Of a DNA stretch of 64,000 bases, positions 33,816 to 48,464 are shown one piece after another. The notes below the pieces were generated by a model. The model saw nothing but the letters and a program-made list of their open reading frames with translations, did no database searches and had not been told where the DNA came from. Origin of the DNA: a virus. The stretch lies in IMG/VR virus record IMGVR_UViG_3300025425_000009, positions 1 to 64,000 of that record. One strand, 5' to 3'. A program made the position numbers and the translations under genes. Numbering within the stretch: position 1 is the stretch's first letter; each line of letters begins with the position of its first letter.

Positions 33816-33886
33816 CGCGGGGTGGAGAAACGGCATCTCGGTGGTCTCATAAACCACAGAACCCAGTTCAACTCTGGGCCCCGCGA
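33816..33886 (+). tRNA. tRNA-Met(CAT)
   Basis: Acceptor CGCGGGG/CCCCGCG, D-arm GAGA/TCTC, anticodon loop CTCATAA, T-loop TTCAACT. The 5' part looks initiator-like, but C1 pairs with G72 and the anticodon stem lacks the three G-C pairs, so elongator Met is more likely. Ile-CAU cannot be excluded. Confidence 0.85.
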
Positions 33887-33906
33887 CAACGATAACAAAA
33901 CAAACA

Positions 33907-34479: not shown

Positions 34480-34489
34480 CTCACACCAC

Positions 34490-34672
34490 ATGACCACAAA
34501 AGATAAATCTGTTGAACCAGAAGACAAGACAAACAGGGCAGGCCGAAGAGCAAGTGCAAAACAGCGTCGTGGAGTGGCTGAGCATAACCGCAAGTACAAA
34601 TTAGCTGTACACTTGAATGACGGTAGCACAGCAAAGCGAAAGAGATTACAAGCACTATGTAAAAACACGTAA
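34490..34672 (+). CDS. Small basic hypothetical protein
   Basis: 60 aa from ATG 34490, rich in Lys and Arg (NRAGRRASAKQRRG). Probably binds nucleic acid. Ends 4 nt before recA. Confidence 0.5.
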   Translation: MTTKDKSVEPEDKTNRAGRRASAKQRRGVAEHNRKYKLAVHLNDGSTAKRKRLQALCKNT

Positions 34673-34676
34673 GAAT

Positions 34677-35693
34677 ATGGCAAAGAAAGCAACAAGCAAA
34701 GGCACAATCTCAGATGCACTTGCAATACTGGAAAAGAAGCATGGTAAAGGTGCTGTTATGAAGTTGGCAAAAGGGGAACAGATCACCAAGGTTGAGCTGC
34801 TTCCTACAGGTATTTATTCTATCGACAAGGCACTAGGTGGAGGGTTTGCAAGAGGAAGAGTGGTAGAGCTGTACGGAAATGAAGGGTCCGGTAAGACTAC
34901 CCTTGCACTGCAGACCATCGCTAAAGCCCAGGCCGATGGACTTAAGGCTGCTTTCATAGATGTGGAACACGCGTTCAGTCTGCAATATGCCAGATCTTTA
35001 GGAGTTGACCTAGAAGAGTTGTATTTTTCACAGCCTAAGTCAGCAGAGATGGCGATGGACATTGCCAAGACACTTGCCCAAACAGGCGAGTTTGCTGTGG
35101 TGGTAGTTGACTCAGTGGCAGCATTAACACCTGACACAGAGTTTGATGGAGAGATAGGTAAGGCACAGATAGGGCACCTTGCTAGATTCATGTCGGCTGC
35201 ACTAAGGCAGATTGTTGGTGAGTTCCACAAGACAGGCACATCACTTATTTTTATCAACCAGCTCAGAATGAAAATTGGTGTAATGTTCGGAAACCCTGAG
35301 ACAACACCTGGTGGAAATGCACTAAAGTATTATGCATCACAGCGACTTGCTATACGTAAGTCTACAAAGATAGATAATAAGGAAGGTGTCACCATAGGGT
35401 ACAACGCACTCATTAGAGTAGAGAAAAACAAGATAGCGCTACCTAACATTAAAGCAACTGTGCCTGTGACAAATGGTAAAGGGTTTGACAAGGTTGCTGA
35501 CATGTTCCAGGTTGCGGAATTACTTAATGTCATAACTAAGGAGAAGGCGTCCTACTTTTTCAATGGTGAGAAACTTGGAGTGTACGAGGTAAACGCAAAA
35601 CAGGCACTGTACGACAGTCTAGACATATACACAGCAATAGAAGAAGCAGTCATAGCGTTAAACAACCCTGATGAAAGCGCTAACATAGTATAG
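34677..35693 (+). CDS. recA: RecA recombinase
   Basis: 338 aa from ATG 34677. Walker A GNEGSGKTT, FIDVEHAFS, VVVVDSVAALTP (Walker B) and NQLRMKIGVMFGNPETTPGG (L2) are bacterial-type RecA rather than T4 UvsX. The usual acidic C-terminus is short. VEHAF replaces the common AEHAL. Likely acts with the SNF2 helicase, SSB and RuvC-like resolvase in recombination-dependent replication. Confidence 0.92.
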   Translation: MAKKATSKGTISDALAILEKKHGKGAVMKLAKGEQITKVELLPTGIYSIDKALGGGFARGRVVELYGNEGSGKTTLALQTIAKAQADGLKAAFIDVEHAFSLQYARSLGVDLEELYFSQPKSAEMAMDIAKTLAQTGEFAVVVVDSVAALTPDTEFDGEIGKAQIGHLARFMSAALRQIVGEFHKTGTSLIFINQLRMKIGVMFGNPETTPGGNALKYYASQRLAIRKSTKIDNKEGVTIGYNALIRVEKNKIALPNIKATVPVTNGKGFDKVADMFQVAELLNVITKEKASYFFNGEKLGVYEVNAKQALYDSLDIYTAIEEAVIALNNPDESANIV

Positions 35694-35695
35694 CA

Positions 35696-36214
35696 ATGAA
35701 AACAACAGAAGAATTTAAAGATGAGTTTCCGAAGACTTACAAGGAGATTAGATCTGCAGAGTTAAGAAAACAGCAAAGCAACAAGGCAGACACTGAGTGT
35801 TCCCATCGATGCTGGATTAAGAAGTGTAGTTTTTGCTCAGTGATCATGGAGTCAGACAGCCAGGTAAACTACAAATGCGGGGAGGATGTTAAAACGGAGT
35901 TTAGTGTACTGACAGGCATAGTGACAAACTTCAATGTATCTGAGAAACTACAAAACCGCAGGATCGGCCAGAGAACTAAGTTATATTGGGTCTACTCCCC
36001 TGTGAATGATGAGATTGGACTTAGATGTTATGAGAATGTGTCAATACAACACACTCAAATAATTGCTGCATACTCATCATCTGAGTTAGTGGCAAAACTA
36101 CGTAGGTTACCTGTAGAAATCATGACAGATGAGGTCTACCTTTATATAGGACAGAACGCGTTTGACCCTAACCGACTTGCTAGGCTATATCTTAAACTAA
36201 CAGCAGTACAGTAA
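35696..36214 (+). CDS. Cys-rich hypothetical protein
   Basis: 172 aa. CSHRCWIKKCSFCSV suggests a metal site near residues 38-52. The remainder is beta-rich. 2 nt after recA. Not recognised. Confidence 0.6.
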   Translation: MKTTEEFKDEFPKTYKEIRSAELRKQQSNKADTECSHRCWIKKCSFCSVIMESDSQVNYKCGEDVKTEFSVLTGIVTNFNVSEKLQNRRIGQRTKLYWVYSPVNDEIGLRCYENVSIQHTQIIAAYSSSELVAKLRRLPVEIMTDEVYLYIGQNAFDPNRLARLYLKLTAVQ

Positions 36215-36310
36215 AGGTCACCTCAACAACATTCACGAGGCCCAGCCTGCACCTTAGGCGGGTGTGGCACAGGAAAGGGTTAGAATATACCTCTACTGCA
36301 CATAACAACG

Positions 36311-36356
36311 TTGTTAACATGTCACAATGTGCATCTCCAAGAGAACGTGGTATAAT
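36311..36356 (+). promoter_or_regulatory. Composite promoter of second tRNA/Y-RNA unit
   Basis: TTGTTAACA 36311-36319 preceded by the palindrome AACAACGTTGTT (36304-36315), TGTGCA 36328-36333, 17-nt spacer, TATAAT 36351-36356. Drives tRNA-Asn and the RNAs beyond. Confidence 0.75.
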
Positions 36357-36376
36357 AGTTATATCTTGGAGGAAAT

Positions 36377-36448
36377 TGACCTGTAGCCAAGTGGTAAGGC
36401 AAGGGATTGTTACTCCCTGTACCGCAGGTTCGAATCCTGCCGGGTCAG
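36377..36448 (+). tRNA. tRNA-Asn(GTT)
   Basis: Acceptor TGACCTG/CGGGTCA, anticodon loop TTGTTAC, T-loop TTCGAAT, discriminator G. First tRNA after the composite promoter. Confidence 0.9.
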
Positions 36449-36459
36449 CAAGGTTAAAT

Positions 36460-36513
36460 CTCATAGATTCGCTTATTGAAAGTAAGTGTATTGTAAATAC
36501 ACCGACCTATGAG
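36460..36513 (+). ncRNA. T-armless tRNA-Tyr-like element
   Basis: 7-bp CTCATAG/CTATGAG encloses a hairpin GTGTA-TTGTAAA-TACAC that looks like a Tyr (GTA) anticodon arm, with no T-arm and only a rudimentary D-region. A complete tRNA-Tyr exists at 41834. Could be a decayed tRNA or a functional mimic. Confidence 0.3.
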
Positions 36514-36542
36514 TACCTATGCAACACACTAGTGTGTCTGCT

Positions 36543-36720
36543 AAGACGGTGCTGTAGACAACAGTTACTTCTACATCTTCAGAAAAAACAATAATGCATA
36601 GCATGCTAAACTTCGGTTTACATGCATAATGAGTGTAGGTTAAGCCTGCGCCTTCTCTGGTAAAGCAGAGTCGTACTAGAGTATTCACTCTTATCACTGT
36701 TGTCGATTGTTGCCCGTTTG
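36543..36720 (+). ncRNA. Second Y-RNA-like RNA, diverged effector domain
   Basis: AGACGG/CCGTTT and GACAACAG (36557-36564)/CTGTTGTC (36697-36704) flank the same internal-loop sequences as the first Y RNA: GTGCTGTAG on the 5' side, and CGATTGTTGCCC (versus CGCTTGTTGCCC) on the 3' side. The effector domain differs: GCATG-TAAAC-CTTCGG-type hairpin, a CTCTG/CAGAG hairpin with loop GTAAAG and a GAGTG/CACTC helix, but no classical T-loop. Followed 3 nt later by tRNA-Asp. Confidence 0.7.
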
Positions 36721-36723
36721 ATT

Positions 36724-36797
36724 GCTCTGTTAGTTCAATAGGAGAACGCTACCTTGTCACGGTAGTAACGTCGGAGCGTAACCGTCACAGAGCGCCA
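36724..36797 (+). tRNA. tRNA-Asp(GTC), swapped T-loop
   Basis: Acceptor GCTCTGT/ACAGAGC, anticodon loop TTGTCAC, discriminator G, encoded CCA. T-loop is AGCGTAA, not TTCRANN: A54, G55 and T58. D-loop AATAGGA has A18-G19 instead of G18-G19. Confidence 0.85.
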
Positions 36798-36840
36798 AGG
36801 GAGTCAACACTCCTACAGCGCAGTTAACAAACAAACAAGC

Positions 36841-37071
36841 ATGATTAAACAATTAAAAAATGATGATGCTGCACTTATCAAAGAGATTGGGATTAAATCA
36901 TTGTCCAGAGTTGTAGGGTACAATGAGAATGGGGAGCCCGTTGAGTTAGTGTACGTAAAACATTCAGATACAGGATACGAGTGGCATGTAGGAGGGGAAT
37001 ATCAGAGTGATGCATCACTAAGGTCAGTAGAGAAATATGCACACAGGCTGAATCATTGCCTATTGGTCTAG
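36841..37071 (+). CDS. Small hypothetical protein overlapping tRNA-Gln
   Basis: 76 aa. Contains SLSRVVGYNENGEPVELVYVKHSDTGYEWHVGGE-like beta strands. Its stop codon lies inside the 5' half of tRNA-Gln (15-nt overlap), so processing of the tRNA would destroy the end of this mRNA. Not recognised. Confidence 0.6.
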   Translation: MIKQLKNDDAALIKEIGIKSLSRVVGYNENGEPVELVYVKHSDTGYEWHVGGEYQSDASLRSVEKYAHRLNHCLLV

Positions 37072-37127
37072 TGGTATGACACCTGCCTTTGAAGCAGGAG
37101 AGCGAGGATCGTTACCTTGATAGGCAG
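37057..37127 (+). tRNA. tRNA-Gln(TTG), swapped T-loop
   Basis: Acceptor TGCCTAT/ATAGGCA, anticodon loop CTTTGAA, T-stem CGAGG/CCTTG with loop ATCGTTA (A54 and T58 exchanged). D-loop keeps GG. Confidence 0.88.
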
Positions 37128-37143
37128 CAGGCTATACATTTAT

Positions 37144-37218
37144 GGGCGATTGGTGATAATAGTAGCACATCCGCCTTGCACGCGGAAGGCGACGGAGCGT
37201 AACCGTCATTGTCCACCA
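37144..37218 (+). tRNA. tRNA-Ala(TGC), swapped T-loop
   Basis: Acceptor GGGCGAT/ATTGTCC, anticodon loop CTTGCAC, encoded CCA. T-loop AGCGTAA identical to that of tRNA-Asp, with D-loop AATAGTA (A18-G19). Confidence 0.88.
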
Positions 37219-37219
37219 A

Positions 37220-37306
37220 GGAGAGATGGCAGAGTGGTTTATCGCACTGGTCTTGAAAACCAGCAAGTCTTCTTAGGCTTCAGAGGTTCGAATCCTCTTC
37301 TCTCCG
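37220..37306 (+). tRNA. tRNA-Ser(TGA)
   Basis: Class II tRNA: acceptor GGAGAGA/TCTCTCC, anticodon loop CTTGAAA, long variable arm, T-loop TTCGAAT. Confidence 0.92.
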
Positions 37307-37310
37307 CATT

Positions 37311-37385
37311 GCAGGTATCGTATAGGGGTTATTACGACTGATTTCCAATCAGTTCACGCAGGTTCGAATCCTGCTACCTGCACCA
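37311..37385 (+). tRNA. tRNA-Gly(TCC)
   Basis: Acceptor GCAGGTA/TACCTGC, anticodon loop TTTCCAA, T-loop TTCGAAT, encoded CCA. Confidence 0.9.
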
Positions 37386-37436
37386 GACAACGCAAAGTGT
37401 GCCTACTCACTACAAGGCTCTTGCTTGTTTGACCAT

Positions 37437-37510
37437 ACTCATGTAGCCCAAATGGTAGAGGCAACGGTTTTAGGGACCGTTCAGTGAAAGTTCGAATCTT
37501 TTCATGAGTA
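37437..37510 (+). tRNA. tRNA-Leu(TAG) with short variable loop
   Basis: Acceptor ACTCATG/CATGAGT, anticodon loop TTTAGGG, T-loop TTCGAAT. The variable region is 5 nt (TCAGT), although bacterial Leu tRNAs normally carry a long variable arm. Confidence 0.82.
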
Positions 37511-37538
37511 CTAGATAGCGATAAGCAATGCACGTATT

Positions 37539-38009
37539 ATGAAAATACAAGGTCCTGTCACACTGTCAGAAATGCAACATGCTATAGCACTAACAAATTC
37601 CATGCTTGCTGCGTCTCGGTTATTGGACATGAAATACTCTACCTTTGTACGTACGGCAACAGCGTTCGGCGTGTACAAGCCCAATCAAGGCAACAAAGGG
37701 CACCAGACCTACAACAAGGCTGAGAGGTATGAACTAGGCGCTGTTAAGAACTCCAACATGAGAACACAAGAGCTTAAATCGCTGTTACTCCTTCTGGGAA
37801 TAAAGGAGTATTGCTGTGAAGGTTGCAGAAGTGCAGACTGGCTAGGCAGTAGACTGGTGATGGAACTGCACCATGTCAACGGAGACAACACTGATAACAG
37901 AATAGAAAACCTGCAAATGCTATGCCCTAACTGTCACAGCCAGACAGACACTTGGCGGGTGCCTAAGCAGGTGCTAAAGAAAAGAAGAGAACGCACAATG
38001 AATAAGTGA
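37539..38009 (+). CDS. HNH homing-type endonuclease
   Basis: 156 aa. N-terminal helix-turn-helix-like half (AASRLLDMKYSTFVRTATAFG), then CCEGCRSADW, LVMELHHVNGDNTDNRIENLQMLCPNCHSQ, a full zinc-supported HNH motif. Typical of phage free-standing HNH endonucleases that invade tRNA arrays. Its stop codon lies inside tRNA-Leu(TAA) (10-nt overlap). Confidence 0.9.
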   Translation: MKIQGPVTLSEMQHAIALTNSMLAASRLLDMKYSTFVRTATAFGVYKPNQGNKGHQTYNKAERYELGAVKNSNMRTQELKSLLLLLGIKEYCCEGCRSADWLGSRLVMELHHVNGDNTDNRIENLQMLCPNCHSQTDTWRVPKQVLKKRRERTMNK

Positions 38010-38080
38010 TGGAACGGTATACATAGAGAGCTTAAACCTCTCGGACTTCGGTCATGTGGGTTCGACTCCCGCCTTATTCA
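38000..38080 (+). tRNA. tRNA-Leu(TAA)
   Basis: Class II: acceptor GAATAAG/CTTATTC, anticodon loop CTTAAAC, long variable arm with GGACTTCGGTC, T-loop TTCGACT. Overlaps the end of the HNH gene. Confidence 0.9.
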
Positions 38081-38108
38081 CACGGTTCCTCACCAGAACT
38101 AACCTTAT

Positions 38109-38179
38109 CAGGGCAAAATATAATGGTAGTATACTCGGTTTGGATCCGAGAAGATCAAGTTCGATTCTTGGTGCCCTGA
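38109..38179 (+). tRNA. tRNA-Pro(TGG)
   Basis: Acceptor CAGGGCA/TGCCCTG, anticodon loop TTTGGAT, T-loop TTCGATT. Confidence 0.9.
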
Positions 38180-38265
38180 CATGTATTTTGCATATGCAAT
38201 GTTTAACTTAATTAAGCTGGCAGTAAAGTGGGCAATCCCTTCCTTGTAGAAGGTGCCTACACTCT

Positions 38266-38339
38266 CCGCTTGTGGTGCAAATGGTAGACACAAACCGTTC
38301 AAAATGGTTACAGTGCGAGTTCGAATCTCGTCAAGCGGA
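38266..38339 (+). tRNA. tRNA-Leu(CAA) with short variable loop
   Basis: Acceptor CCGCTTG/CAAGCGG, anticodon loop TTCAAAA, variable loop ACAGT, T-loop TTCGAAT. A second class I-shaped Leu tRNA. Confidence 0.82.
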
Positions 38340-38350
38340 CATGCGTATGA

Positions 38351-38356
38351 TATAAT
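38351..38356 (+). promoter_or_regulatory. -10 box for the gene at 38388
   Basis: TATAAT 12 nt after tRNA-Leu(CAA), 31 nt before ATG 38388. No TTGTTAACA box. Confidence 0.5.
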
Positions 38357-38387
38357 TAAGATATTATTAACCAATCAAAATTCATAT

Positions 38388-38819
38388 ATGAAATATCTTT
38401 TTGAAGAAGCACAAGTTGTAGCATCAGTGCTACCAGTCGCACAAACATCAGCTGCTGTAAATGGCGCTGCTGTTAACGTATCTGAGTTCGGAGACGGACT
38501 ATGCATCGTCACTGTAGGCGCTGCACTTGGAGGACCTACTGGTCAGTCTGTAGTTGGAAAACTACAGGAATCAGTAAACGGTTCAGATGGGTGGGCTGAC
38601 ATTTCTGGAGCTGTAACGGTTGCTATCACAGCAGACAACAAAACTGCAGAAATCAAGCTAACACGACAAACTCGTGTTGCAAGTAAGAGGTTTGTTCGGG
38701 CTGTCATTACACCTGCTCTTACAGCAGGGACAGCTCCTACTATTCCAGTTTCTGCTGTGTTTGTTCTTGGGTCAGCACCTACAAGTGCAGGATTCACGAA
38801 CAGTACAACTGCTAACTAG
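38388..38819 (+). CDS. Probable virion protein (decoration-like)
   Basis: 143 aa from ATG 38388. Small hydrophobic residues, repeated Gly/Ala/Thr strands (CIVTVGAALGGPTGQSVVGK, LQESVNGSDGWADISGAV). The composition and LQESxNGxDGWADI block are seen in capsid or tail surface proteins of uncultured phages. It is alone on the plus strand inside the tRNA array, with its own promoter and terminator, which fits strong late expression. Role inferred. Confidence 0.5.
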   Translation: MKYLFEEAQVVASVLPVAQTSAAVNGAAVNVSEFGDGLCIVTVGAALGGPTGQSVVGKLQESVNGSDGWADISGAVTVAITADNKTAEIKLTRQTRVASKRFVRAVITPALTAGTAPTIPVSAVFVLGSAPTSAGFTNSTTAN

Positions 38820-38835
38820 TTAGTACCAGATTAAG

Positions 38836-38858
38836 CACGGCACCATGTCGTGTTTTTT
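38836..38858 (+). terminator. Rho-independent terminator
   Basis: CACGGCA-CCA-TGTCGTG stem followed by six T, 16 nt after the virion-type gene. Confidence 0.9.
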
Positions 38859-38878
38859 CCTGCCTGTTTATAAGTAGG

Positions 38879-38907
38879 TGTACACAGTGACACAGTAGTG
38901 GTATTAT
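38879..38907 (+). promoter_or_regulatory. Promoter for the gene at 38935
   Basis: TGTACA 38879-38884, 17-nt spacer, TATTAT 38902-38907. Upstream box is degenerate (CTGTTTATAAG). Confidence 0.6.
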
Positions 38908-38934
38908 ATACATATACAAATATAACGTAACAAT

Positions 38935-39504
38935 ATGCAAACATTCGTACACTCCCCAGATGTCCACACAATTGTAAAGCAACTAGATAAAAAGAGGTTG
39001 TTCAAACAGACAGTAGAAACATTTCAGCTTATGAAAGCCATAGCAGGTCTCTACGCCAAAAGAGATGATGCAGGCACTGTAATTAAAGATGGGTGGAGCT
39101 CACACCCTGCAGCCAATATGTGGCGAGGTCATACCTATGCACTTCTATGTTACCAGGAGTTGTGTGTTAATGAGTGTATTGCACGAGGCATCAACTATTC
39201 AAGCCCTAATGTGTACGAAAAAACCAAAGCTGTATATGACGAGTATTTAACAGGCGGTGACCTTAACCCTCCAGCTTGGTGGGGTGATGAAAGAGTGCAT
39301 GGCACACACCGTGCTAACCTACTACGCAAAGACTTAGAAGACAGAGAAAAGCAGTTAGCAAAAGGCAAAGATCATGTGTTGCAATACCACAGCTTTGGCT
39401 GGTCTGAAAAACCGTATAACATTGATGGCACTCAAACTGAGTATATATGGCCAGTAGACAAGACTGGGCAAATGTCATTCTACTCTGTTGAACGAAAAAA
39501 ATAG
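38935..39504 (+). CDS. Pyrimidine-dimer DNA glycosylase-like protein
   Basis: 189 aa. MQTFVHSPD, LDKKRLFKQTVETFQLMKAI, SSHPAANMWRGHTYALLCY and HRANLLRKD match the MSMEG_6728/endonuclease V-like family named after T4 DenV. Likely repairs UV damage or acts on a related DNA lesion; the exact substrate is not proven. Single-gene unit between two promoters. Confidence 0.75.
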   Translation: MQTFVHSPDVHTIVKQLDKKRLFKQTVETFQLMKAIAGLYAKRDDAGTVIKDGWSSHPAANMWRGHTYALLCYQELCVNECIARGINYSSPNVYEKTKAVYDEYLTGGDLNPPAWWGDERVHGTHRANLLRKDLEDREKQLAKGKDHVLQYHSFGWSEKPYNIDGTQTEYIWPVDKTGQMSFYSVERKK

Positions 39505-39515
39505 CACTTACAGAG

Positions 39516-39560
39516 TTGTTAACAGGCCATGTTGTACAATGCTCTAAAATAGGTTATAGT
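39516..39560 (+). promoter_or_regulatory. Composite promoter
   Basis: TTGTTAACA 39516-39524, TGTACA 39533-39538, TATAGT 39555-39560 (16-nt spacer). Transcribes the structured leader and tRNA-Thr. Confidence 0.72.
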
Positions 39561-39561
39561 T

Positions 39562-39731
39562 ATATAGGTAGAGGGGTAGTTTATTCAAAGGGTCTGCTCC
39601 TTTACGTTCGAGTATTTTTTTCAAGCTGACTTTGTGAGCAGTCAGCAACTCTCTAGTCTTTTGATTTAGAGTTTCATCTTATGCAGTAGTGGGTCATCAA
39701 TACCAACACGTAGTCCCACTCTCTAGTGGGA
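39562..39731 (+). ncRNA. Structured RNA or leader before tRNA-Thr
   Basis: No credible ORF. Hairpins AAAGG/CCTTT and GCTGACT/AGTCAGC. CCCACT at 39715-39720 can pair either with AGTGGG upstream (39688) or AGTGGG downstream (39725), giving two exclusive folds. Could be a leader or a stand-alone RNA. Confidence 0.4.
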
Positions 39732-39734
39732 ACC

Positions 39735-39805
39735 GCCGCTGTAGTTCAATGGTAGAACAGCCTTCTTGTAAGGGGCATATGAAGGTTCGATTCCTTCCGG
39801 CGGCT
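39735..39805 (+). tRNA. tRNA-Thr(TGT)
   Basis: Acceptor GCCGCTG/CGGCGGC, anticodon loop CTTGTAA, T-loop TTCGATT. The next gene starts 1 nt after the discriminator base. Confidence 0.88.
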
Positions 39806-39806
39806 C

Positions 39807-40277
39807 ATGGAAACAACAAACAACTTAAACGAAGTTATAAAAAAATTACAAGAGCCAACCCACTGGTACACAGAGGTGTGGTACTTCGTTATATACACCA
39901 TTCCTCGTATTAGCAGTGACACTTATCACAGTGTCCGGTATGCATGCCAAAGAGTAACACAAGGGTATGACGACAGAATGATGTTTAGTCATTCCTACTT
40001 CCATGCTGAGATGATGGTGCGAGTACTAGACGATTTTATTAACAACTCAATAGGCTACCCTGGGATGTCGGACGACATTAAATGCAACACTCCAGAGGAG
40101 TGGATAAAGACACTAAAGATAATGAGGGCAGGCTTTCAGTCTGTGCTGGACCTAGAAGATGATCCGTTTTCAACTATGTCATCTGAAGAGTGTTCGGCAA
40201 GCCAAGCAGAACTTAGGAAAAGATTCAAACAAGGAATGAAGTTGTATACAACATACTATGAGCACCTTTGGGACTAG
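39807..40277 (+). CDS. Hypothetical protein
   Basis: 156 aa, starting at the 3' end of tRNA-Thr, so RNase P/3' processing would generate a nearly leaderless mRNA. Helical, aromatic, acidic; no domain recognised. Confidence 0.65.
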   Translation: METTNNLNEVIKKLQEPTHWYTEVWYFVIYTIPRISSDTYHSVRYACQRVTQGYDDRMMFSHSYFHAEMMVRVLDDFINNSIGYPGMSDDIKCNTPEEWIKTLKIMRAGFQSVLDLEDDPFSTMSSEECSASQAELRKRFKQGMKLYTTYYEHLWD

Positions 40278-40326
40278 TCAGTAGTGGGTTATGATATTAT
40301 ATCTATAAGCAGAGTAGGTTACCTAC

Positions 40327-40404
40327 ATATGCGCACATGTTCCAAGGATGGCGAGTTCGGCTCCAAACTGAACTGGGAGGGTTCGATTCCTTCTGCGTAT
40401 GCCA
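40327..40404 (+). tRNA. tRNA-Trp(CCA)
   Basis: Acceptor ATATGCG/TGCGTAT, anticodon loop CTCCAAA, T-loop TTCGATT, discriminator G, encoded CCA. A TATTAT -10 lies at about 40295. Confidence 0.85.
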
Positions 40405-40556
40405 TGACAGTCTGCCTGTCTTAGACGGATCTCCTCGCCGTTGAACAGAGTGACAACAGCCGTGCCTTCTGTAGGTGCGTCTTCAAAACACTGAGTATAA
40501 ATCGACAATGGTGTGTAACAGCATCGTTTTTATACACTAACGAATATGACCCACCT

Positions 40557-41531
40557 ATGCTAATTGGACACACAGATGAAACTTCATACAGCCTTTACCC
40601 AAGTCAACACCCATGGGCAAGAGAGCTATACGACCAAGCAGTAGCGAACACGTGGTTCCCCCACGAAATTCCTTTGAAAGAGGATCTTATTGATTTTGAA
40701 AATATGACAGTTGACGAGCGTCATGCAATAGAGTTCATAATGTCTTTCTTCAACCCAGCAGAACTCATTGTAAACAGAACACTTGCTCTAGGAGTATACC
40801 CATACCTTACAGCACCTGAGTGTCATCTGTACCTTGCAAAACAAATGTGGGAAGAAGCGAACCACTGCGTTTCATTCGAATATGTTCTTGAAACATTTCC
40901 GTTTGATCGTGAAAAGATCTATGGCCACCACAACAACGTACCAGAAATGATAGCTAAAGAAGCTTACCTGAAACGTTATCTAGACCCTGTGATTGGTGAC
41001 GGAGTTGACATCACCACAGTTGAAGGAAAGCAGGCGTTCATACGTAACCTTGTTGCAATCAACATAGTTACAGAAGGTATCTGGTTTTACTCAGGATTCA
41101 TGGTAATGCTCTCATTCCGTCAGCGAAACAAGCTTCGAAACTTTGGATCAATGATTAACTGGGTACTTCGAGATGAAAGTCTTCACCTCAAGTTTGGAAT
41201 GACACTCATTCTTACAGTGCTTGATGAAAACAAGGACATTGTGACAGACGAGTTTGCAGAAGAAATTCAAGCAATGATTGTGGAAGGAGTGGAACTTGAA
41301 ACTGCGTACAACAAGGTACTGTTTCCAAACGGTATTCTAGGACTCAATGCAGACTATGTAAACCAGTACGTAAAGTATGTAGCGGATCGTAGATTCGAAG
41401 AACTCGGGTTTGAACCACACTACAACGTGACTAACCCTGCAAAGTGGATGACTACCTCTACAGATGTGTATGAACTAGTTAACTTCTTTGAACAGCAAAA
41501 TACCTCGTATGAGGTAAACGCTAAGGCGTAA
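40557..41531 (+). CDS. nrdB: Ribonucleotide reductase small subunit, class Ic-type
   Basis: 324 aa. Metal ligands align as Glu69, Glu100, His103, Glu173, Glu207 and His210 (FNPAELIV, WEEANHCVSF, TEGIWF, RDESLH). Position 107, where the radical Tyr122 of E. coli sits, is Phe, and the first ligand is Glu rather than Asp. Both changes are the signature of class Ic enzymes using a Mn/Fe cofactor. Supplies dNTPs; the large subunit must be elsewhere or from the host. A glutaredoxin lies at 44551. Confidence 0.9.
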   Translation: MLIGHTDETSYSLYPSQHPWARELYDQAVANTWFPHEIPLKEDLIDFENMTVDERHAIEFIMSFFNPAELIVNRTLALGVYPYLTAPECHLYLAKQMWEEANHCVSFEYVLETFPFDREKIYGHHNNVPEMIAKEAYLKRYLDPVIGDGVDITTVEGKQAFIRNLVAINIVTEGIWFYSGFMVMLSFRQRNKLRNFGSMINWVLRDESLHLKFGMTLILTVLDENKDIVTDEFAEEIQAMIVEGVELETAYNKVLFPNGILGLNADYVNQYVKYVADRRFEELGFEPHYNVTNPAKWMTTSTDVYELVNFFEQQNTSYEVNAKA

Positions 41532-41563
41532 CGGTTCACTGGCAACTGACAGGTTGCCGACAT

Positions 41564-41635
41564 GGAGGCATAGTGTAACGGACAACATGTAGGTCTTCGA
41601 AACCTGAGATCCTGGTTCGAATCCAGGTGCCTCCA
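41564..41635 (+). tRNA. tRNA-Arg(TCG)
   Basis: Acceptor GGAGGCA/TGCCTCC, anticodon loop CTTCGAA, T-loop TTCGAAT. Reads CGN. Confidence 0.9.
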
Positions 41636-41645
41636 CCTGACGTAA

Positions 41646-41654
41646 TGTTATAAT
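41646..41654 (+). promoter_or_regulatory. Extended -10 promoter
   Basis: TGTTATAAT, identical to five other sites in the window. Lies just after tRNA-Arg and before the small gene at 41683. Confidence 0.5.
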
Positions 41655-41682
41655 AACTATCTTAGCAAGTAACTTATTCTAT

Positions 41683-41823
41683 ATGCCAGAAGAACTTACA
41701 CAGGAACAAATTGAGCAGAACAAGGAGGAATCTCTTAGAAATAGAGCAGCCGCTGACAAGCAGGCTGAGGAGTTCGGTCATAACGATCCCAGCACAGACT
41801 TTGTTTGTGACAGCTGCCAATAG
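41683..41823 (+). CDS. Small acidic protein
   Basis: 46 aa (MPEELTQEQIEQNKEES to FVCDSCQ). Helical and acidic, ends with a CxxC pair. Behind an extended -10 promoter and ahead of tRNA-Tyr. Function unknown. Confidence 0.55.
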   Translation: MPEELTQEQIEQNKEESLRNRAAADKQAEEFGHNDPSTDFVCDSCQ

Positions 41824-41833
41824 GCAGTTACCT

Positions 41834-41917
41834 GCTAGCATGGCATGAGTGGTCAATGGCACTGGGCTGTAAACTCAGCGACTTCGGTCTACGCAGGTTC
41901 GAATCCTGCTGCTAGCA
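41834..41917 (+). tRNA. tRNA-Tyr(GTA)
   Basis: Class II: acceptor GCTAGCA/TGCTAGC, anticodon loop CTGTAAA, variable arm CGACTTCGGTC, T-loop TTCGAAT. Confidence 0.92.
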
Positions 41918-41923
41918 CAACAT

Positions 41924-41998
41924 GGTGGGTATAGTGTAATGGTCGCACTTCAGATTGTGATTCTGACAGTTCGGGATCATTCCCCGATTCCCACCCCA
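41924..41998 (+). tRNA. tRNA-His(GTG), swapped T-loop
   Basis: G-1 present, acceptor GTGGGTA/TTCCCAC with one T-T mismatch, anticodon loop TTGTGAT, T-stem TCGGG/CCCGA with loop ATCATTC (A54, T58), encoded CCA. Confidence 0.88.
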
Positions 41999-41999
41999 T

Positions 42000-42071
42000 G
42001 GCGCCGTGGTAAAATGGTTAATACGCAGGATTTTCATTCCTGAGTTCGCAGTTCAATTCTGCGTGGCGTCA
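42000..42071 (+). tRNA. tRNA-Glu(TTC)
   Basis: Acceptor GGCGCCG/TGGCGTC, anticodon loop TTTTCAT, T-loop TTCAATT. Follows tRNA-His by 1 nt. Confidence 0.88.
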
Positions 42072-42099
42072 CAACATAAGAGCTGAACACATAGGTAAT

Positions 42100-42127
42100 A
42101 AAAAAGGCCCAACTCGCTAAGAAGGGC
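42100..42127 (-). terminator. Terminator of a minus-strand mini-operon
   Basis: GCCC/GGGC hairpin with a T-run on the minus strand (A-run on plus, 42100-42105), 12 nt after the stop of the membrane peptide. Confidence 0.75.
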
Positions 42128-42138
42128 TCTTTGTGTTA

Positions 42139-42261
42139 TCAGAATGTTACCACTACAACGCCTACACCAATTAGGAGCATGCATATAGCACCGTAATACA
42201 TTTCTGAAAAGGTTAACAAGATGATAGAGCAAACACATAATATAACTAATCCAAGTTCCAT
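42139..42261 (-). CDS. Small two-helix membrane peptide
   Basis: 40 aa, almost entirely hydrophobic: MELGLVILCVCSIILLTF, then GAICMLLIGVGVVVVTF. Overlaps the end of the upstream minus-strand gene by 16 nt. Convergent with the tRNA array. Function unknown; membrane insertion is clear. Confidence 0.6.
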   Translation of the reverse strand: MELGLVILCVCSIILLTFSEMYYGAICMLLIGVGVVVVTF

Positions 42262-42419
42262 GGGTCTCTTCCCTTGGGGATGTTAGTTGTGGCGTCTGCA
42301 CGGTCTACGTTGACAGTGTCATCTTCGGTGTTGACAAGCTCTGGATAGAGAGTGTCCTCTTTACTAGTGATGTCTTGTTCAAAACTAGACTTGCGGGGTG
42401 TCATATCTTTTATGTCCAT
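42246..42419 (-). CDS. Small acidic protein on opposite strand
   Basis: 57 aa (MDIKDMTPRKSSFEQDI to GRDPWNLD). Preceded by a minus-strand TATAAT 10 nt upstream and followed by an overlapping membrane peptide and a terminator, so this is a complete two-gene unit against the local direction. Not recognised. Confidence 0.6.
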   Translation of the reverse strand: MDIKDMTPRKSSFEQDITSKEDTLYPELVNTEDDTVNVDRADATTNIPKGRDPWNLD

Positions 42420-42429
42420 ATCATTAGTT

Positions 42430-42435
42430 ATTATA
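42430..42435 (-). promoter_or_regulatory. Minus-strand -10 box
   Basis: TATAAT on the minus strand, divergent from the plus-strand TATAAT at 42453-42458. Confidence 0.6.
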
Positions 42436-42452
42436 TACTAGACACAATGGTA

Positions 42453-42458
42453 TATAAT
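42453..42458 (+). promoter_or_regulatory. -10 box of a small RNA
   Basis: TATAAT, start expected near 42465. No ORF follows before the terminator. Confidence 0.55.
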
Positions 42459-42464
42459 AAACAT

Positions 42465-42633
42465 AGGAGAGTACGCTCTTCAGTGCCGACTCAGGTCCGC
42501 TACCGAATTGGCAAACAACGTGAGTCTTGAATTGACCCACATAACCTGTAGAAAGGAGACAATATCTGATTCTTAACTGAATCCCATAAAGAACCATTTG
42601 CCGCTGGGTATAGCATTGATGGTTCTTTTTTTT
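42465..42633 (+). ncRNA. Stand-alone small RNA with own terminator
   Basis: About 170 nt between a TATAAT and a strong terminator (AGAACCAT/ATGGTTCT, eight T). Contains AGAG/CTCT, GACTCA/TGAGTC and GATTC/GAATC hairpins and no convincing ORF. Class unknown. Confidence 0.55.
42590..42633 (+). terminator. Rho-independent terminator
   Basis: 8-bp perfect stem with a 21-nt loop then eight T. Confidence 0.85.
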
Positions 42634-42640
42634 GAGAGAG

Positions 42641-42685
42641 TTGTTAACAGGTATCAGTTTACACAATGCCTATCTTTGTTATAAT
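42641..42685 (+). promoter_or_regulatory. Composite promoter with extended -10
   Basis: TTGTTAACA 42641-42649, TTTACA 42658-42663, TGTTATAAT 42677-42685. Combines both promoter types seen in the window. Confidence 0.75.
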
Positions 42686-42698
42686 AGGAAAGGAAGCC

Positions 42699-42800
42699 AT
42701 GGACATATATGCACTACCAGAGATACAAGACGAAGACGTCAAAGAGCTAATTGAGTCAGACGTTCACAAAGGTGACTACCACAGTCTAGCGTTACTATGA
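42699..42800 (+). CDS. Very small acidic protein
   Basis: 33 aa (MDIYALPEIQDEDVKEL...), 13 nt after the -10. ATGA overlap with the next gene supports translation coupling. Confidence 0.5.
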   Translation: MDIYALPEIQDEDVKELIESDVHKGDYHSLALL

Positions 42801-42976
42801 TACCGCGACTAACCTATGCTGAAAGAAAGGCACTCCAACTTGCAAATTGTGCAAGAAACAACCACAAAATACTCGGTGGAAAGTGCTTGGAGTGTGACCT
42901 TAGATTCATAAAGCCCAAGAAGCAAACAACGACCCTACCTAAGGGTAACTCCTCAGGAGTCCAGGAGTCTCGTTGA
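42797..42976 (+). CDS. Small basic Cys-containing protein
   Basis: 59 aa. NCARNNHKILGGKCLECDLRF may form a zinc site. The start overlaps the previous stop (ATGA). Followed by a terminator. Confidence 0.5.
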   Translation: MIPRLTYAERKALQLANCARNNHKILGGKCLECDLRFIKPKKQTTTLPKGNSSGVQESR

Positions 42977-42998
42977 AATACACGAGGCTTCTTTTTTT
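42966..42998 (+). terminator. Rho-independent terminator
   Basis: AGTCTCGT/ACGAGGCT stem (one G-T) then seven T. The stop codon of the preceding gene is inside the loop. Confidence 0.8.
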
Positions 42999-43004
42999 CT
43001 GGTT

Positions 43005-43265
43005 ATGAAAACCAACAACTTATCAATCTATCGTACTATCATGACAAGACAGCAAACAATGTGGGCATGGGTGGACAAATCAGACACCAACAGCAAAGGT
43101 ATCATTTTCGTAGATGAAACAAAACTGGCGGTTAGCAAGATGCGTGCATCAGTAGTTGCAAAACTGAAAGCAGCTGACACACCAGGTGGAAAAGATACAC
43201 AGGAGATGAGGACACTTTGTAAATCTTCAGTTATTCAAAAAGTCACAGTAACCTACACAACATAA
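43005..43265 (+). CDS. Hypothetical protein
   Basis: 86 aa. Contains QTMWAWVDKSDTNSKGIIFVDETK, mixed alpha/beta. Starts only 7 nt after the terminator T-run, so expression may rely on read-through. Not recognised. Confidence 0.55.
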   Translation: MKTNNLSIYRTIMTRQQTMWAWVDKSDTNSKGIIFVDETKLAVSKMRASVVAKLKAADTPGGKDTQEMRTLCKSSVIQKVTVTYTT

Positions 43266-43266
43266 T

Positions 43267-43461
43267 ATGTTCGGATCTATATTGCATGAGTTGTACAAAA
43301 GAAAGATATTGCTTGCTTCAGACACACAAACCACGGAAGACAAGGCTTTGCAGATAATAGAAGAGCTAACATCGGACAAGCGAGTTGACACACTAGCTGC
43401 CATAACCATGGTAGAATCACTTGTTTCGTCCATGCGAGTGCCTCATGGCAGCAACAAATAA
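43267..43461 (+). CDS. Small helical protein
   Basis: 64 aa, 1 nt after the previous stop. All-helical by composition. Function unknown. Confidence 0.55.
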   Translation: MFGSILHELYKRKILLASDTQTTEDKALQIIEELTSDKRVDTLAAITMVESLVSSMRVPHGSNK

Positions 43462-43487
43462 CAGTTTATACAGTAACTAACCTTTAC

Positions 43488-43874
43488 ATGATTTTCAAAA
43501 GAAACAACGACCTAGTGCAGTCCTTAGAAGATACCAAATTGCATGTTATACAACTACAGCGCGATATTGCTTCTCTTAGTCATGACCGTGCAATAGAGTT
43601 GAAGGACCTTCATGCATCTCATAAACGAGAAGTGGACAGACTAATGTTTGAAGCTGAGTTTGCAGATAACACTGAAATCAAAGAACTTAGGAAAACCTTT
43701 ACTGAACTTGACAAGGCTTACGGAATCCTAACCAAGGAAAACGACATGCATAAACAAATACTTGAATTAGACGCAGACATCATAGATGTTAAGACTTTGA
43801 TTTCTGAGCTAATGGCTAAACTCCCTACAGTTAACATTTCAGGTCTGCTTGCTCAACCAGCAGATAAGAAATAA
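43488..43874 (+). CDS. Coiled-coil protein
   Basis: 128 aa, heptad-like charged helix for most of its length (LEDTKLHVIQLQRDIASLSH...). No domain. Possibly oligomeric. Confidence 0.6.
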   Translation: MIFKRNNDLVQSLEDTKLHVIQLQRDIASLSHDRAIELKDLHASHKREVDRLMFEAEFADNTEIKELRKTFTELDKAYGILTKENDMHKQILELDADIIDVKTLISELMAKLPTVNISGLLAQPADKK

Positions 43875-43877
43875 CGC

Positions 43878-44297
43878 ATGTCTATGTATTCAGAGGATTG
43901 CACACAGTCTGCATGGAGAGCTGCAAGGTCACTTGCAGATCAATACCAAGACTGGGAAATACGCTCACTCGAAAATACTGGTCTCATGAACCGAGGTGTG
44001 GCTGTTGTTAGAGTAATGCTCATAAACAAGATGGCCGACACGCATACCTACTTGACCATGTCTACAGGTGTTGCAAGGTGTCTTGAAGAAATGTTGGACC
44101 ATGAACCTACTGCTTCTTATCAAACTCCTCCATACATGTGCATTGACACCACTGGCTTGCGTGGAAATGTAGGTATTACTTCCGATGACCACACCCGATT
44201 CCACATGACAAGGCAGCCAGTTGACGATACTGTGGATAGATACAAAGCAAGTCTTAGGAAAGTTACATCATATCGTAACAGCCAGAATAAGTTATAA
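43878..44297 (+). CDS. Hypothetical protein
   Basis: 139 aa, mixed alpha/beta, 3 nt after the coiled-coil gene. GVAVVRVMLINKMADTHTYL looks like a central strand-helix. Not recognised. Confidence 0.6.
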   Translation: MSMYSEDCTQSAWRAARSLADQYQDWEIRSLENTGLMNRGVAVVRVMLINKMADTHTYLTMSTGVARCLEEMLDHEPTASYQTPPYMCIDTTGLRGNVGITSDDHTRFHMTRQPVDDTVDRYKASLRKVTSYRNSQNKL

Positions 44298-44299
44298 TT

Positions 44300-44449
44300 A
44301 TGAAAGACGTGCTAAACTTTTACCTCGATAAAGACGCCCATCTCATTCTGGAAACAGAGGATGACTTCTTTAGACAAGGTGGTTGCCAGTCTTCCAGAAC
44401 CTGGGAGCCAGTCGACGAAGATCAAGTTGACAAGAAGGAACCTGAATAA
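44300..44449 (+). CDS. Small acidic protein
   Basis: 49 aa (MKDVLNFYLDKDAHLILETEDD... KKEPE), 2 nt after the previous stop. Precedes tRNA-Phe. Function unknown. Confidence 0.55.
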   Translation: MKDVLNFYLDKDAHLILETEDDFFRQGGCQSSRTWEPVDEDQVDKKEPE

Positions 44450-44460
44450 GGTTCCAACTT

Positions 44461-44531
44461 GCTCCTGTAGCTCAATGGTAGAGCGTCCGTTTGAAGCACG
44501 GAAGACAACAGTTCGATTCTGTTCAAGAGCG
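44461..44531 (+). tRNA. tRNA-Phe(GAA)
   Basis: Acceptor GCTCCTG/CAAGAGC with one mismatch, anticodon loop TTGAAGC, T-loop TTCGATT. Isolated from the main array. Confidence 0.85.
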
Positions 44532-44535
44532 CTAA

Positions 44536-44888: not shown

Positions 44889-45377
44889 TTATCCACAGAG
44901 TCCTTGTTCATACGGCTTGTGTGACCATCCTCCTCCAAGACCATGCAGTTTTGAAGCGTTCCAGTCAGCAGTTCCGTATTTGCTCAGAACCCACATTGTG
45001 AGTTCTATGTTATCGTTGGCATTGAGTTTCTGGCGTGAATGACCATGGCCCCAATACATACTCGAATAACTTGCCCATGTTGAATCGATATATTGATACA
45101 CTCCTCCTGCGGAGGATGTGCTGTTTCTTGCATCTGCCTTGAAATTACTTTCTGCACATGCAATATTCAACGCTAGACTTTGATCGACATTATGCTCAAT
45201 GGCATATAGTCTGACACGGTCGTGATTTGTAAGATCAACATCTAGTGCGTCAGCAAGTTCTACTATATCCAGCGGCTGCTCTAATAGAGCAAGCATAGAT
45301 TCGACTTCAAACTTAACCTCAGGTTCATTAGATGCATGGGCTATCAGAGCGATACCCATTAAAGTCCATACAATCAC
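44889..45377 (-). CDS. Secreted lytic transglycosylase-like protein
   Basis: 162 aa. N-terminal hydrophobic signal (MIVWTLMGIALIAHA). SLT-like catalytic region ALNIACAESNFKADARN (Glu in AES) followed by AGGVYQYIDSTWASYS. Ends in GGGWSHKPYEQGLCG. Degrades peptidoglycan; could act in lysis or be virion-borne. Last gene of the late block. Confidence 0.8.
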   Translation of the reverse strand: MIVWTLMGIALIAHASNEPEVKFEVESMLALLEQPLDIVELADALDVDLTNHDRVRLYAIEHNVDQSLALNIACAESNFKADARNSTSSAGGVYQYIDSTWASYSSMYWGHGHSRQKLNANDNIELTMWVLSKYGTADWNASKLHGLGGGWSHKPYEQGLCG

Positions 45378-45425: not shown

Positions 45426-45740
45426 TTATCCGTGTGTCTTGGCTGATATGCCGACGGAGTTAAACGCTTTAGCGACAGTAGGAATAACAAGTGGCTGTAG
45501 GATCATTTTGTATGATGCTACCGCTACTGTTGCAGCAGTCAAAAATGACTGTCCGAAATCCTGCCATGAGACGAATTGAAACCCGTCTTGTATCAGAACT
45601 GCCACGACTACTGTAATAACTGCTGTACCTGCTCTTCGTGCAGAAGATGCACCAAGCGCTGGAATTAAAGCAAGAATACCTGACACCACTGCAGCTGCCA
45701 TTCCGGCTACTTCAGGGGTCAATAGAGATGGTTCAATCAT
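45426..45740 (-). CDS. Holin-like membrane protein
   Basis: 104 aa with three hydrophobic stretches (about residues 8-30, 38-50, 63-85) and a short polar tail. Position between two peptidoglycan hydrolases fits a holin. No family signature. Confidence 0.6.
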   Translation of the reverse strand: MIEPSLLTPEVAGMAAAVVSGILALIPALGASSARRAGTAVITVVVAVLIQDGFQFVSWQDFGQSFLTAATVAVASYKMILQPLVIPTVAKAFNSVGISAKTHG

Positions 45741-45888: not shown

Positions 45889-47745
45889 TTACTTCTTGTG
45901 CTGTCTAACCTTTGCCCATATGAAGCCGTCGTTGCTTACAACATGGTCTGTTATTGTAACAGTGTCCCCTTGATACAGCACTGAAATAGGTGAGTTAGCT
46001 AACGAAGGGTCCTGCCTAAAGTTAACGTTGGTGTCAAGTACTGCTGTGTTACCTGGCTGGAAAGATGGGTTATCTATGGTCGCAAACTGTAGACCGTCGA
46101 CTCTACCAAGTGCCATGTACCCTTCTGTTGGTTCAGACTGTGCAGGTGTGTCTTCAAATGAAAATCCAAAGTGTTCCATAATAGGAGCGATAGGTGAGAA
46201 TATAGCTATCCTATCAGATCCAGCAAATATCTGACCAACTGGTTGCCTTTTGGTGTTTACTACAAGTGAGGAAGAGTCTCCTCCTGCAGTGAAGTAACTT
46301 CCGTCATTTGCAACAAGCACCTGATTTACAAATTTTCCAGTTAGACGTTCTCCTGTAGTTTTGTCGATTCCGTAGCCGACTGAAATTGTCACACCTGTTG
46401 CAACCACCTTGGACGTTTGTGTTCCTGTGGTTCTACCTGATTTGATAACAGTGTCTCCTGTCTTTGCTACAGCAGGAGTAGGGATTATATCGCCAAGTTT
46501 GTTTTGTGTAAGTGCTTGGTACGGCACTGTAAGTTTTACAAGTGCAGTGTCAAACCTGTTTGCTGTTGCTCCATCTAAATGCAGCATCTCACCTTCGGTG
46601 CATTGGCCTATCACATCTTTTCTTTTGTCACCTCCATCTAATACGGAAGGCTGAATGATGTTGTCACCTAGCTTTGCTCCTTTCCAGTGAGGAAACGCAC
46701 AGTGTGTGTTTTGTAAAGCATAAGCATCTCCGTCTTTGAACACTATTGCTCCAAGTGTACATGCTGTTCCTTTGTGCCACACTGCAGAGGTGCCTCCTTT
46801 GACTGGTCTGTGTCTATCACCGTGCACAGCCATGCCCATTGAAGTAACGTCCCCTACAACAATTACATCTGTTCTCACTCCACGTATCTTCCTTGGTATT
46901 ACATCTTCTGCACTAAGGGCAGAGATGGTATCTTTTACGCTAACCAACACAACAATTCCGTCCTTGCCTTCACCATTTTTTGGGCCAACTCCTACACCAA
47001 CCACATTCTGTTTTGTAAGTAGTTCATCTTCCACTTGCTCCTTAACTGCTGTAGGATCTGCACCTCTGAATAAGTTGAACATAGATTTTAGTAAGTTTAT
47101 AAACATAACGAATAAGTGAGTTGTCTCAGGCTCTTCAGGTGCCGGAGTCTCTATGTCCCATTCAGGTTGGGGTATACCAAGGAGATTACATATACCATTG
47201 GCAATTCCTATGGCAGCCTTCCTGTGCCCTCCTTCAGTCTGTAGAGTAAGCCAGTCTGACTTGTTTGTCATATAACAAGTCTCAACAAGAACAGATCGTA
47301 CATTGACCTGGTTGATCCAAGCTAGACTTCCTACATATGAGAGTGATTGATCTTTCGGTCCTCTGTCTCTAATACCTAATGAACTTGCAATTTCAGATGA
47401 CATCACCTTGGCAATGTTCTTTGATATTTGACTTGAGCCATGATAAGCTTCAACTCCACTGACATCACTGTTTGAATTTGCGTTTAGATGTATGTCCACT
47501 GCAATACCGTCGTTTAAGTTCGGTGCTACTAAGTCAGCCCAAGCTATGGACTGTGAAAGTGTCAGATTGTCTGGTACAAAGTGAGGTGTCACACCTGCTA
47601 GTTCAAGCAAAGGAATGAGTTCATCTCTAATTAGCATTGCTTCGTCAGCTTCTTGGAATGTAGCGTATGTCACTACTTTACCAGGGTCGTGGTCATGATG
47701 ACCAGCATTTATAATTACAACTTTTTTTGTTTTCTTTAAATACAT
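45889..47745 (-). CDS. Amidase - trypsin-like protease - SH3 fusion
   Basis: 618 aa. Residues 8-190: Amidase_3 with zinc ligands His16, Glu32 and His86 and catalytic Glu155 (LVETCYM). Residues 205-228: hydrophobic amphipathic segment. Residues 240-530: chymotrypsin-fold serine protease with His348 (QNTHC), Asp399 (NRFDTALV) and Ser491 (GGDSSS). Residues 565-618: SH3-like domain. One protein could cut both the peptide stem and protein of the envelope. The combination is unusual for an endolysin. Confidence 0.82.
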   Translation of the reverse strand: MYLKKTKKVVIINAGHHDHDPGKVVTYATFQEADEAMLIRDELIPLLELAGVTPHFVPDNLTLSQSIAWADLVAPNLNDGIAVDIHLNANSNSDVSGVEAYHGSSQISKNIAKVMSSEIASSLGIRDRGPKDQSLSYVGSLAWINQVNVRSVLVETCYMTNKSDWLTLQTEGGHRKAAIGIANGICNLLGIPQPEWDIETPAPEEPETTHLFVMFINLLKSMFNLFRGADPTAVKEQVEDELLTKQNVVGVGVGPKNGEGKDGIVVLVSVKDTISALSAEDVIPRKIRGVRTDVIVVGDVTSMGMAVHGDRHRPVKGGTSAVWHKGTACTLGAIVFKDGDAYALQNTHCAFPHWKGAKLGDNIIQPSVLDGGDKRKDVIGQCTEGEMLHLDGATANRFDTALVKLTVPYQALTQNKLGDIIPTPAVAKTGDTVIKSGRTTGTQTSKVVATGVTISVGYGIDKTTGERLTGKFVNQVLVANDGSYFTAGGDSSSLVVNTKRQPVGQIFAGSDRIAIFSPIAPIMEHFGFSFEDTPAQSEPTEGYMALGRVDGLQFATIDNPSFQPGNTAVLDTNVNFRQDPSLANSPISVLYQGDTVTITDHVVSNDGFIWAKVRQHKK

Positions 47746-47754
47746 ATTGAAAAA

Positions 47755-48141
47755 TTAGTTATTAGACACTGTTCTAGGTGTTGGTGCATCGCACACTGAT
47801 GTAAACCCTGTAAGACTGCCAGTAAACACTGCATGGGTCTCTATCTGTGGGTCGCTGTGGCTACGGAAATAAAAAAGAGGTATGCCTTGTACGTTAGGTG
47901 TACCTCTTGTTGCAGCGGTGTTGGAATACACAGAAGACCCGTGGTCAGTCGTATTTCCAGCAACTACTGCTTCAGCTGATCTGTACACACTGTAAATCTG
48001 GTTGAACCCGAATGACACAACTGTCAGTATTACAAACATTGCAACAGCTGCACCAATTAGCTCAGGCAAATGAGTTGCCTTCTTAATAGATATGACAGCG
48101 TCACAGTGAAATGTTTTTATGGTGTGTTTAAGTTTCTTCAT
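47755..48141 (-). CDS. Membrane-anchored hypothetical protein
   Basis: 128 aa with one transmembrane helix (about residues 28-50) and a Ser/Thr-rich outer part with two Cys-free strands. Just upstream of the lysin, so possibly an accessory of lysis. Confidence 0.55.
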   Translation of the reverse strand: MKKLKHTIKTFHCDAVISIKKATHLPELIGAAVAMFVILTVVSFGFNQIYSVYRSAEAVVAGNTTDHGSSVYSNTAATRGTPNVQGIPLFYFRSHSDPQIETHAVFTGSLTGFTSVCDAPTPRTVSNN

Positions 48142-48143
48142 TG

Positions 48144-48464
48144 CTATTTTCGTTTATTAAGTCTGTTAGTAAGAAACTCCAACCCTGCAAGTGATAAGGT
48201 GTTGAGTCCAGTCATTCCTAGGAACGCTCCAATCGCTGAAAATAAAATGACAGCGTCAGGGTTTTGAAAAAACAACTTCGATGCCATTCCGAACACTCCG
48301 CCTGAAAAGGTAGCAATCACAAATCTTGCAAAGTAGTCTAGTTTTGTAAACTTTGCCCCTGTGTCTTTTGCCACCTGCCATTGACTTGTGGCATGGGCAA
48401 TTGCGCCGAAGATGACTACAACTGTTACCATTATTGTGCTGTATATTTCTGGTGAGATTTTCAT
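48144..48464 (-). CDS. Putative holin (LydA-like)
   Basis: 106 aa. Three hydrophobic segments (residues 8-28, 47-60, 70-95) and a basic end (NRLNKRK). LDYFARFVIATFSGGVFGMASKLF resembles the LydA/holin family start. Upstream of the lysin gene. Confidence 0.6.
   Translation of the reverse strand: MKISPEIYSTIMVTVVVIFGAIAHATSQWQVAKDTGAKFTKLDYFARFVIATFSGGVFGMASKLFFQNPDAVILFSAIGAFLGMTGLNTLSLAGLEFLTNRLNKRK

Follow-up and report, generated by a model that had tools for sequence, protein, structure and literature searches.

A viral endolysin predicted to combine an amidase, a NAL1-like serine protease module and an SH3 domain

What could a serine protease be doing inside a phage lysin? The question is raised by a gene in the window, by which we mean the whole 64,000-nt stretch of viral DNA analysed here, taken from a virus record of 75.7 kb (IMG/VR record IMGVR_UViG_3300025425_000009). 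The gene (45889..47745, on the minus strand, as are all its parts) starts with ATG and encodes a three-part endolysin of 618 aa, in which an Amidase_3 domain is followed by a protease module (residues 234-530) and a C-terminal SH3_3 domain. The original prediction had placed an amidase, a serine protease and an SH3 domain in one lysin and had named seven catalytic residues, H16, E32, H86 and E155 for the amidase and H348, D399 and S491 for the protease; a single intact ORF does carry all three domains, and all seven residues stand at those positions. The uninterrupted frame rules out a wrong reading frame, and chance matches are rejected because of the E-values of the domain matches given below. 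That the fusion is an assembly artefact is not favoured either, the same frame being present in IMG/VR contig 3300035698_006647, which is identical over 17,854 bases and comes from a co-assembled metagenome (3300035698) of Ace Lake, Antarctica (PMC8542988). This contig has to be regarded as non-independent support, since both sequences may stem from a single virus sampled in one lake.

The Zn-dependent N-acetylmuramoyl-L-alanine amidase domain (Amidase_3, residues 10-187, 47185..47718) matches its Pfam model with an E-value of 2.3e-24 (86.8 bits against a cut-off of 27) and the PHROGs endolysin family phrog_435 with an E-value of 2e-31. Its four catalytic residues are invariant in an alignment of five sequences that includes endolysins of Leptolyngbya, Xanthomonas, Geobacillus and Dorea phages, and the profile of this alignment, when searched against solved structures, recovers CwlV (E 3e-32) and amidases with E-values down to 9e-33. 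At the other end, the SH3_3 domain (residues 573-617, 45895..46029), presumed to bind the wall, scores 26 bits in a Pfam scan of the whole protein, slightly below the cut-off of 27; a scan confined to the C-terminus raises this to 31 bits, above the cut-off. Between the amidase and the protease module lies a linker (residues 188-233, 47047..47184), which includes a hydrophobic amphipathic helix at residues 211-226 (LFVMFINLLKSMFNLF; 47068-47115; hydrophobic moment 0.47) that is present in both AlphaFold2 models. By eye, a segment resembling this helix occurs in four other loci (L004, L014, L021 and L025), where it is located between the catalytic His and Asp. Because the AlphaFold2 model built without amidase rows is poor in the amidase region, we make no claim on the relative placement of the domains.

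Capsid, tail and tape-measure genes precede the lysin gene in a leftward late operon, at the end of which it sits in a lysis cassette with its neighbours on the same strand. Upstream are a holin-like gene (48144..48464; phrog_6384 holin, E 1.2e-4, and a weak match to Pfam Phage_holin_3_3) and, directly adjoining the lysin, a gene whose 128-aa product shows one hydrophobic stretch on reading its sequence (47755..48141) and has no family match in Pfam or PHROGs. Downstream, a 104-aa protein with hydrophobic stretches, also read from the sequence and also without a family match in Pfam or PHROGs (45426..45740), is possibly a second holin-type protein, and it is followed by an SLT transglycosylase with a hydrophobic N-terminus (44889..45377; Pfam SLT E 4.5e-6, above the cut-off; phrog_4067 E 9e-11), a second wall-degrading enzyme. 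Judged by its domains and genomic position, then, the protein is an endolysin of the common amidase plus SH3 type, and on this point we concur with the original prediction.

As for the virus itself, protein matches reveal no clear single host lineage: that of a tail gene is to Synechococcus phages over 63 aa, those of the DNA polymerase are weak and to haloarchaeal phages and cyanophages, and those of the capsid are to Firmicutes, actinobacterial and Oceanotoga phages. A Shine-Dalgarno-like motif precedes only 4 of the 69 main ORFs (249-63775), a rarity that fits a host lineage not relying on Shine-Dalgarno sequences. The window also carries 20 tRNA genes spread across 12 kb (32898-44532), with the small subunit of a ribonucleotide reductase (40557-41531) inside this tRNA-rich stretch.

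The identity of the middle module could be narrowed down considerably. Residues 234-525 match the PHROG 'protease' family phrog_20754 (E 9e-38), and relatives from plasmids and viruses align across the whole module, with H348, D399 and S491 invariant in the alignments. Both Pfam models of the NAL1 family, NAL1_N and Nal1_C, match these plasmid and viral relatives. In the window protein itself the NAL1_N model finds no match and Nal1_C scores 16.8 bits (E 0.004), below the gathering score of 26.1, which we take as a limit of the Pfam model because several undoubted relatives also score below it. When a profile of eight sequences was searched against solved structures, the best match was rice NARROW LEAF 1 (NAL1; E 7.8e-17), followed by streptogrisin B and then alpha-lytic protease. 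A structural model of the middle domain had been suggested as a check in the original prediction, and the AlphaFold2 model of residues 189-540 (12 sequences, mean pLDDT 80, pTM 0.79) has a chymotrypsin fold with NAL1 as its nearest structure: NAL1 occupies the top ranks in Foldseek (E 4.8e-13), and VIA-align superposes model and NAL1 with a Z of 22.8 over 276 residues (rmsd 3.7), the match beginning at model residue 40, in the N-terminal domain. The next family by fold, the streptogrisins, reaches a Z of about 17 over 170 residues. A generic trypsin or streptogrisin origin was therefore rejected, being only the second-best match by profile and fold and one that covers the protease half only. 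On the strength of the profile, Foldseek and VIA-align matches, we assign the middle part to the NAL1-like proteases, including the family's own N-terminal domain, which the model and alignments place at residues about 234-305 (46831..47046), ahead of the chymotrypsin-fold domain proper (residues 306-530, 46156..46830; PHROG, profile and fold). The earlier description as a chymotrypsin-type protease thus stands as far as the PA-clan fold and the intact triad are concerned, and is refined to a specifically NAL1-like protease; the NAL1_N-type domain had been overlooked, as had the residue that follows the catalytic serine.

That residue bears on whether the protease works. The codons of the triad are at 46702..46704 (His348), 46549..46551 (Asp399) and 46273..46275 (Ser491), and of the 72 scorable viral sequences, the window counted, all keep the His and the Ser and 70 keep the Asp. 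The position after the catalytic serine is Gly in 71 of these 72 sequences and Ser (Ser492) in the window alone, giving GDSS instead of GDSG; this Gly is conserved in the family and is not itself catalytic. In addition, the branch leading to the window protease domain is long (1.08, the median being 0.45), and its placement among the viral sequences is weakly supported. Given Ser492 and the long branch, protease activity may be weakened or lost, and we regard the GDSS change as a reason for caution on full activity, one that leaves the triad itself untouched. Taken further, the same two features could mean that the module is a degenerate, inactive scaffold that persists for its role in folding, oligomerisation or binding; the protein would then function only as an amidase plus SH3 lysin, and the 3 to 12 chains held by NAL1 structure entries are in keeping with oligomers. 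We nevertheless consider this rather unlikely, as a long-branch domain has retained its whole triad along with the GDS motif, which drift after loss of function would hardly be expected to spare.

How unusual is the fusion? A profile-guided scan of 2.9 million viral contigs for the protease gave 80 loci, the window included, and an N-terminal amidase was found in none of the other 79; the residues ahead of the matched protease part number 93 at most in those loci, against 216 in the window. Conversely, a protease match was found in 0 of 33 viral relatives of the window amidase, which are small proteins of, nearly all, 170-310 aa. Among cellular sequences, no recognisable amidase was seen by eye (L040 masked) in the longest protease-carrying open frames from about 940 genomes. 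A second amidase-NAL1 fusion was thus found neither via protease relatives, nor via close relatives, nor via amidase relatives, bearing in mind that the scans for relatives rest on few peptide patterns and that a divergent fusion could escape them. Within the limits of such pattern-based scans, the fusion is unique in the sampled sequences, in line with the original prediction, which had called the combination unusual.

The NAL1-like proteases themselves are common among bacteria and phages, in nearly every case as a separate protein of ~340 aa. They were found in 39 of 396 sampled actinobacterial genomes (about half of these being weak, streptogrisin-level matches), in 159 of 398 sampled genomes from the phylum of a Bacillota MAG, and in 3 of 145 from the phylum of an Omnitrophota MAG. 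Several viral members have C-terminal extensions. In one of them, an 887-aa protein on viral contig L097 (5971-8631), the protease is joined to a SpoIID domain (E 6e-20), and the long region between the two resembles, by eye, a TIM barrel; in another, of 1995 aa (L079, 4843-10827), the first 300 residues are the NAL1-like protease and the other 1,700 have no family match. A further viral copy (L014, 7944-8982) is broken by a frame change between N-domain and protease domain, which is either an error or real. Six of 10 cellular loci encode, directly next to the NAL1-like protease, a free-standing NAL1_N-domain protein with a length of 87-112 aa (L017 4980-5240, L019 5455-5736, L021 2873-3205, L023 6198-6521, L024 6175-6510 and L025 6204-6470). 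This small protein may inhibit the protease in trans or serve as its partner, much as propeptide-type inhibitors do with other proteases.

With regard to function, the likeliest reading, which we propose tentatively, is that the protease of this endolysin works and clears away protein of the envelope or bound to the wall at lysis; an active NAL1-family serine protease would, plausibly though by no means surely, dismantle host envelope proteins in step with peptidoglycan cleavage. In the simplest history, a NAL1-like module would have been inserted into the linker of an otherwise ordinary endolysin made up of amidase and SH3. When infection ends, the holin would let the lysin out, the SH3 domain would keep it on the wall, the amidase would cleave between glycan and stem peptide, and the protease would cut host protein that is attached to the wall or covers it and that, left in place, would delay lysis. 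Cleavage of an S-layer, as first suggested for this lysin, may be one form of this proposal, and a speculative one; the protein-rich host envelope, the self-activation and the processing of other lysis proteins put forward at the same time are likewise speculative. The NAL1_N-type domain probably remains attached; as NAL1 crystal constructs contain it, there is no need to postulate that its removal activates the protease. Conservation of the triad in nearly all viral relatives and the cassette with its holin-like and SLT genes lend some weight to a protease-armed lysin, and so, perhaps, do the SpoIID fusion of L097 and two viral cases in which an M15-type endolysin gene adjoins the NAL1-like gene. 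Against it, cellular NAL1-like proteins stand alone and have no obvious export signal by eye, the genes around the viral ones are mixed (terminase, head, epimerase, helicase) and not chiefly those of lysis, and the GDSS change and the long branch have to be reckoned with.

Another possibility, an improbable one in our view, is that the protease cuts its own protein, for example in the PAPEEPETT linker, and frees the amidase from the protease plus SH3 part, either after release or as a means to time lysis. The acidic, proline-containing linker between amidase and protease module does look flexible in the sequence and the models, and endolysin isoforms from one gene are known. Those of phi2638A, however, arise from internal translation starts (PMC12203907), the N-domain stays attached in NAL1 structures, and a conserved cleavage motif was found in no relative, no close relative having been found for comparison. 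An intracellular role, in which the protease would act on some protein of host or phage ahead of lysis and be tethered to the lysin for co-expression only, is very unlikely: it would agree with the mostly standalone cellular and viral relatives, in which no obvious signal peptide is seen by eye, with the presumed site of action of the cellular ones and with the several viral NAL1-like genes near head or packaging genes, but fusion within a lysin and the late lysis cassette point to the wall, and a position between a wall hydrolase and an SH3 domain poorly suits a purely cytoplasmic job.

If the protease-armed lysin that we propose is real, protein bound to the wall or lying on the surface can obstruct the release of phage, and evolution overcame that obstacle by fusing a protease to the lysin. 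The peptidase domains described in endolysins so far have peptidoglycan peptides as their proposed targets, and in the open-access literature searched we found no endolysin with a trypsin-like or serine-protease domain and no record of protease-based dismantling of envelope proteins by endolysins. It would also give a bacterial-virus role to the NAL1 family, which is abundant in bacteria and phages despite being called plant-specific in the plant literature; there, NAL1 is an active protease, which in rice breaks down a TOPLESS-related corepressor and in maize, as ZmNAL1a, REL2 (PMC12915138).

Set against known systems, the lysin is new in bringing two known families together within a single lysis protein. 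With the NAL1-like proteases (PF25608 NAL1_N / PF25819 Nal1_C; phrog_20754) it shares the layout of N-domain plus chymotrypsin fold and the triad, whereas the known members and all relatives found have no N-terminal amidase and have GDSG where the lysin has GDSS. With the Amidase_3 endolysins of phrog_435, such as those of Xanthomonas phage Pfeifenkraut and Geobacillus phage PK3.5, it shares the domain, the invariant H16/E32/H86/E155 and a location beside holins, but the viral relatives are small and lack a protease. The mycobacteriophage LysA proteins likewise unite an amidase with a peptide-cutting domain in a multi-domain lysin; the proposed targets of the peptidase domains (M23, L-Ala-D-Glu peptidase, RipA-type and C39-like cysteine peptidases) are the peptides of peptidoglycan, and no chymotrypsin-fold serine protease is among them (PMC3314691). 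In the protein of viral contig L097, a NAL1-like protease is also joined to a wall-acting domain, although there the protease is N-terminal, the partner is SpoIID, no SH3 match is present and the adjacent gene encodes a DNA methyltransferase.
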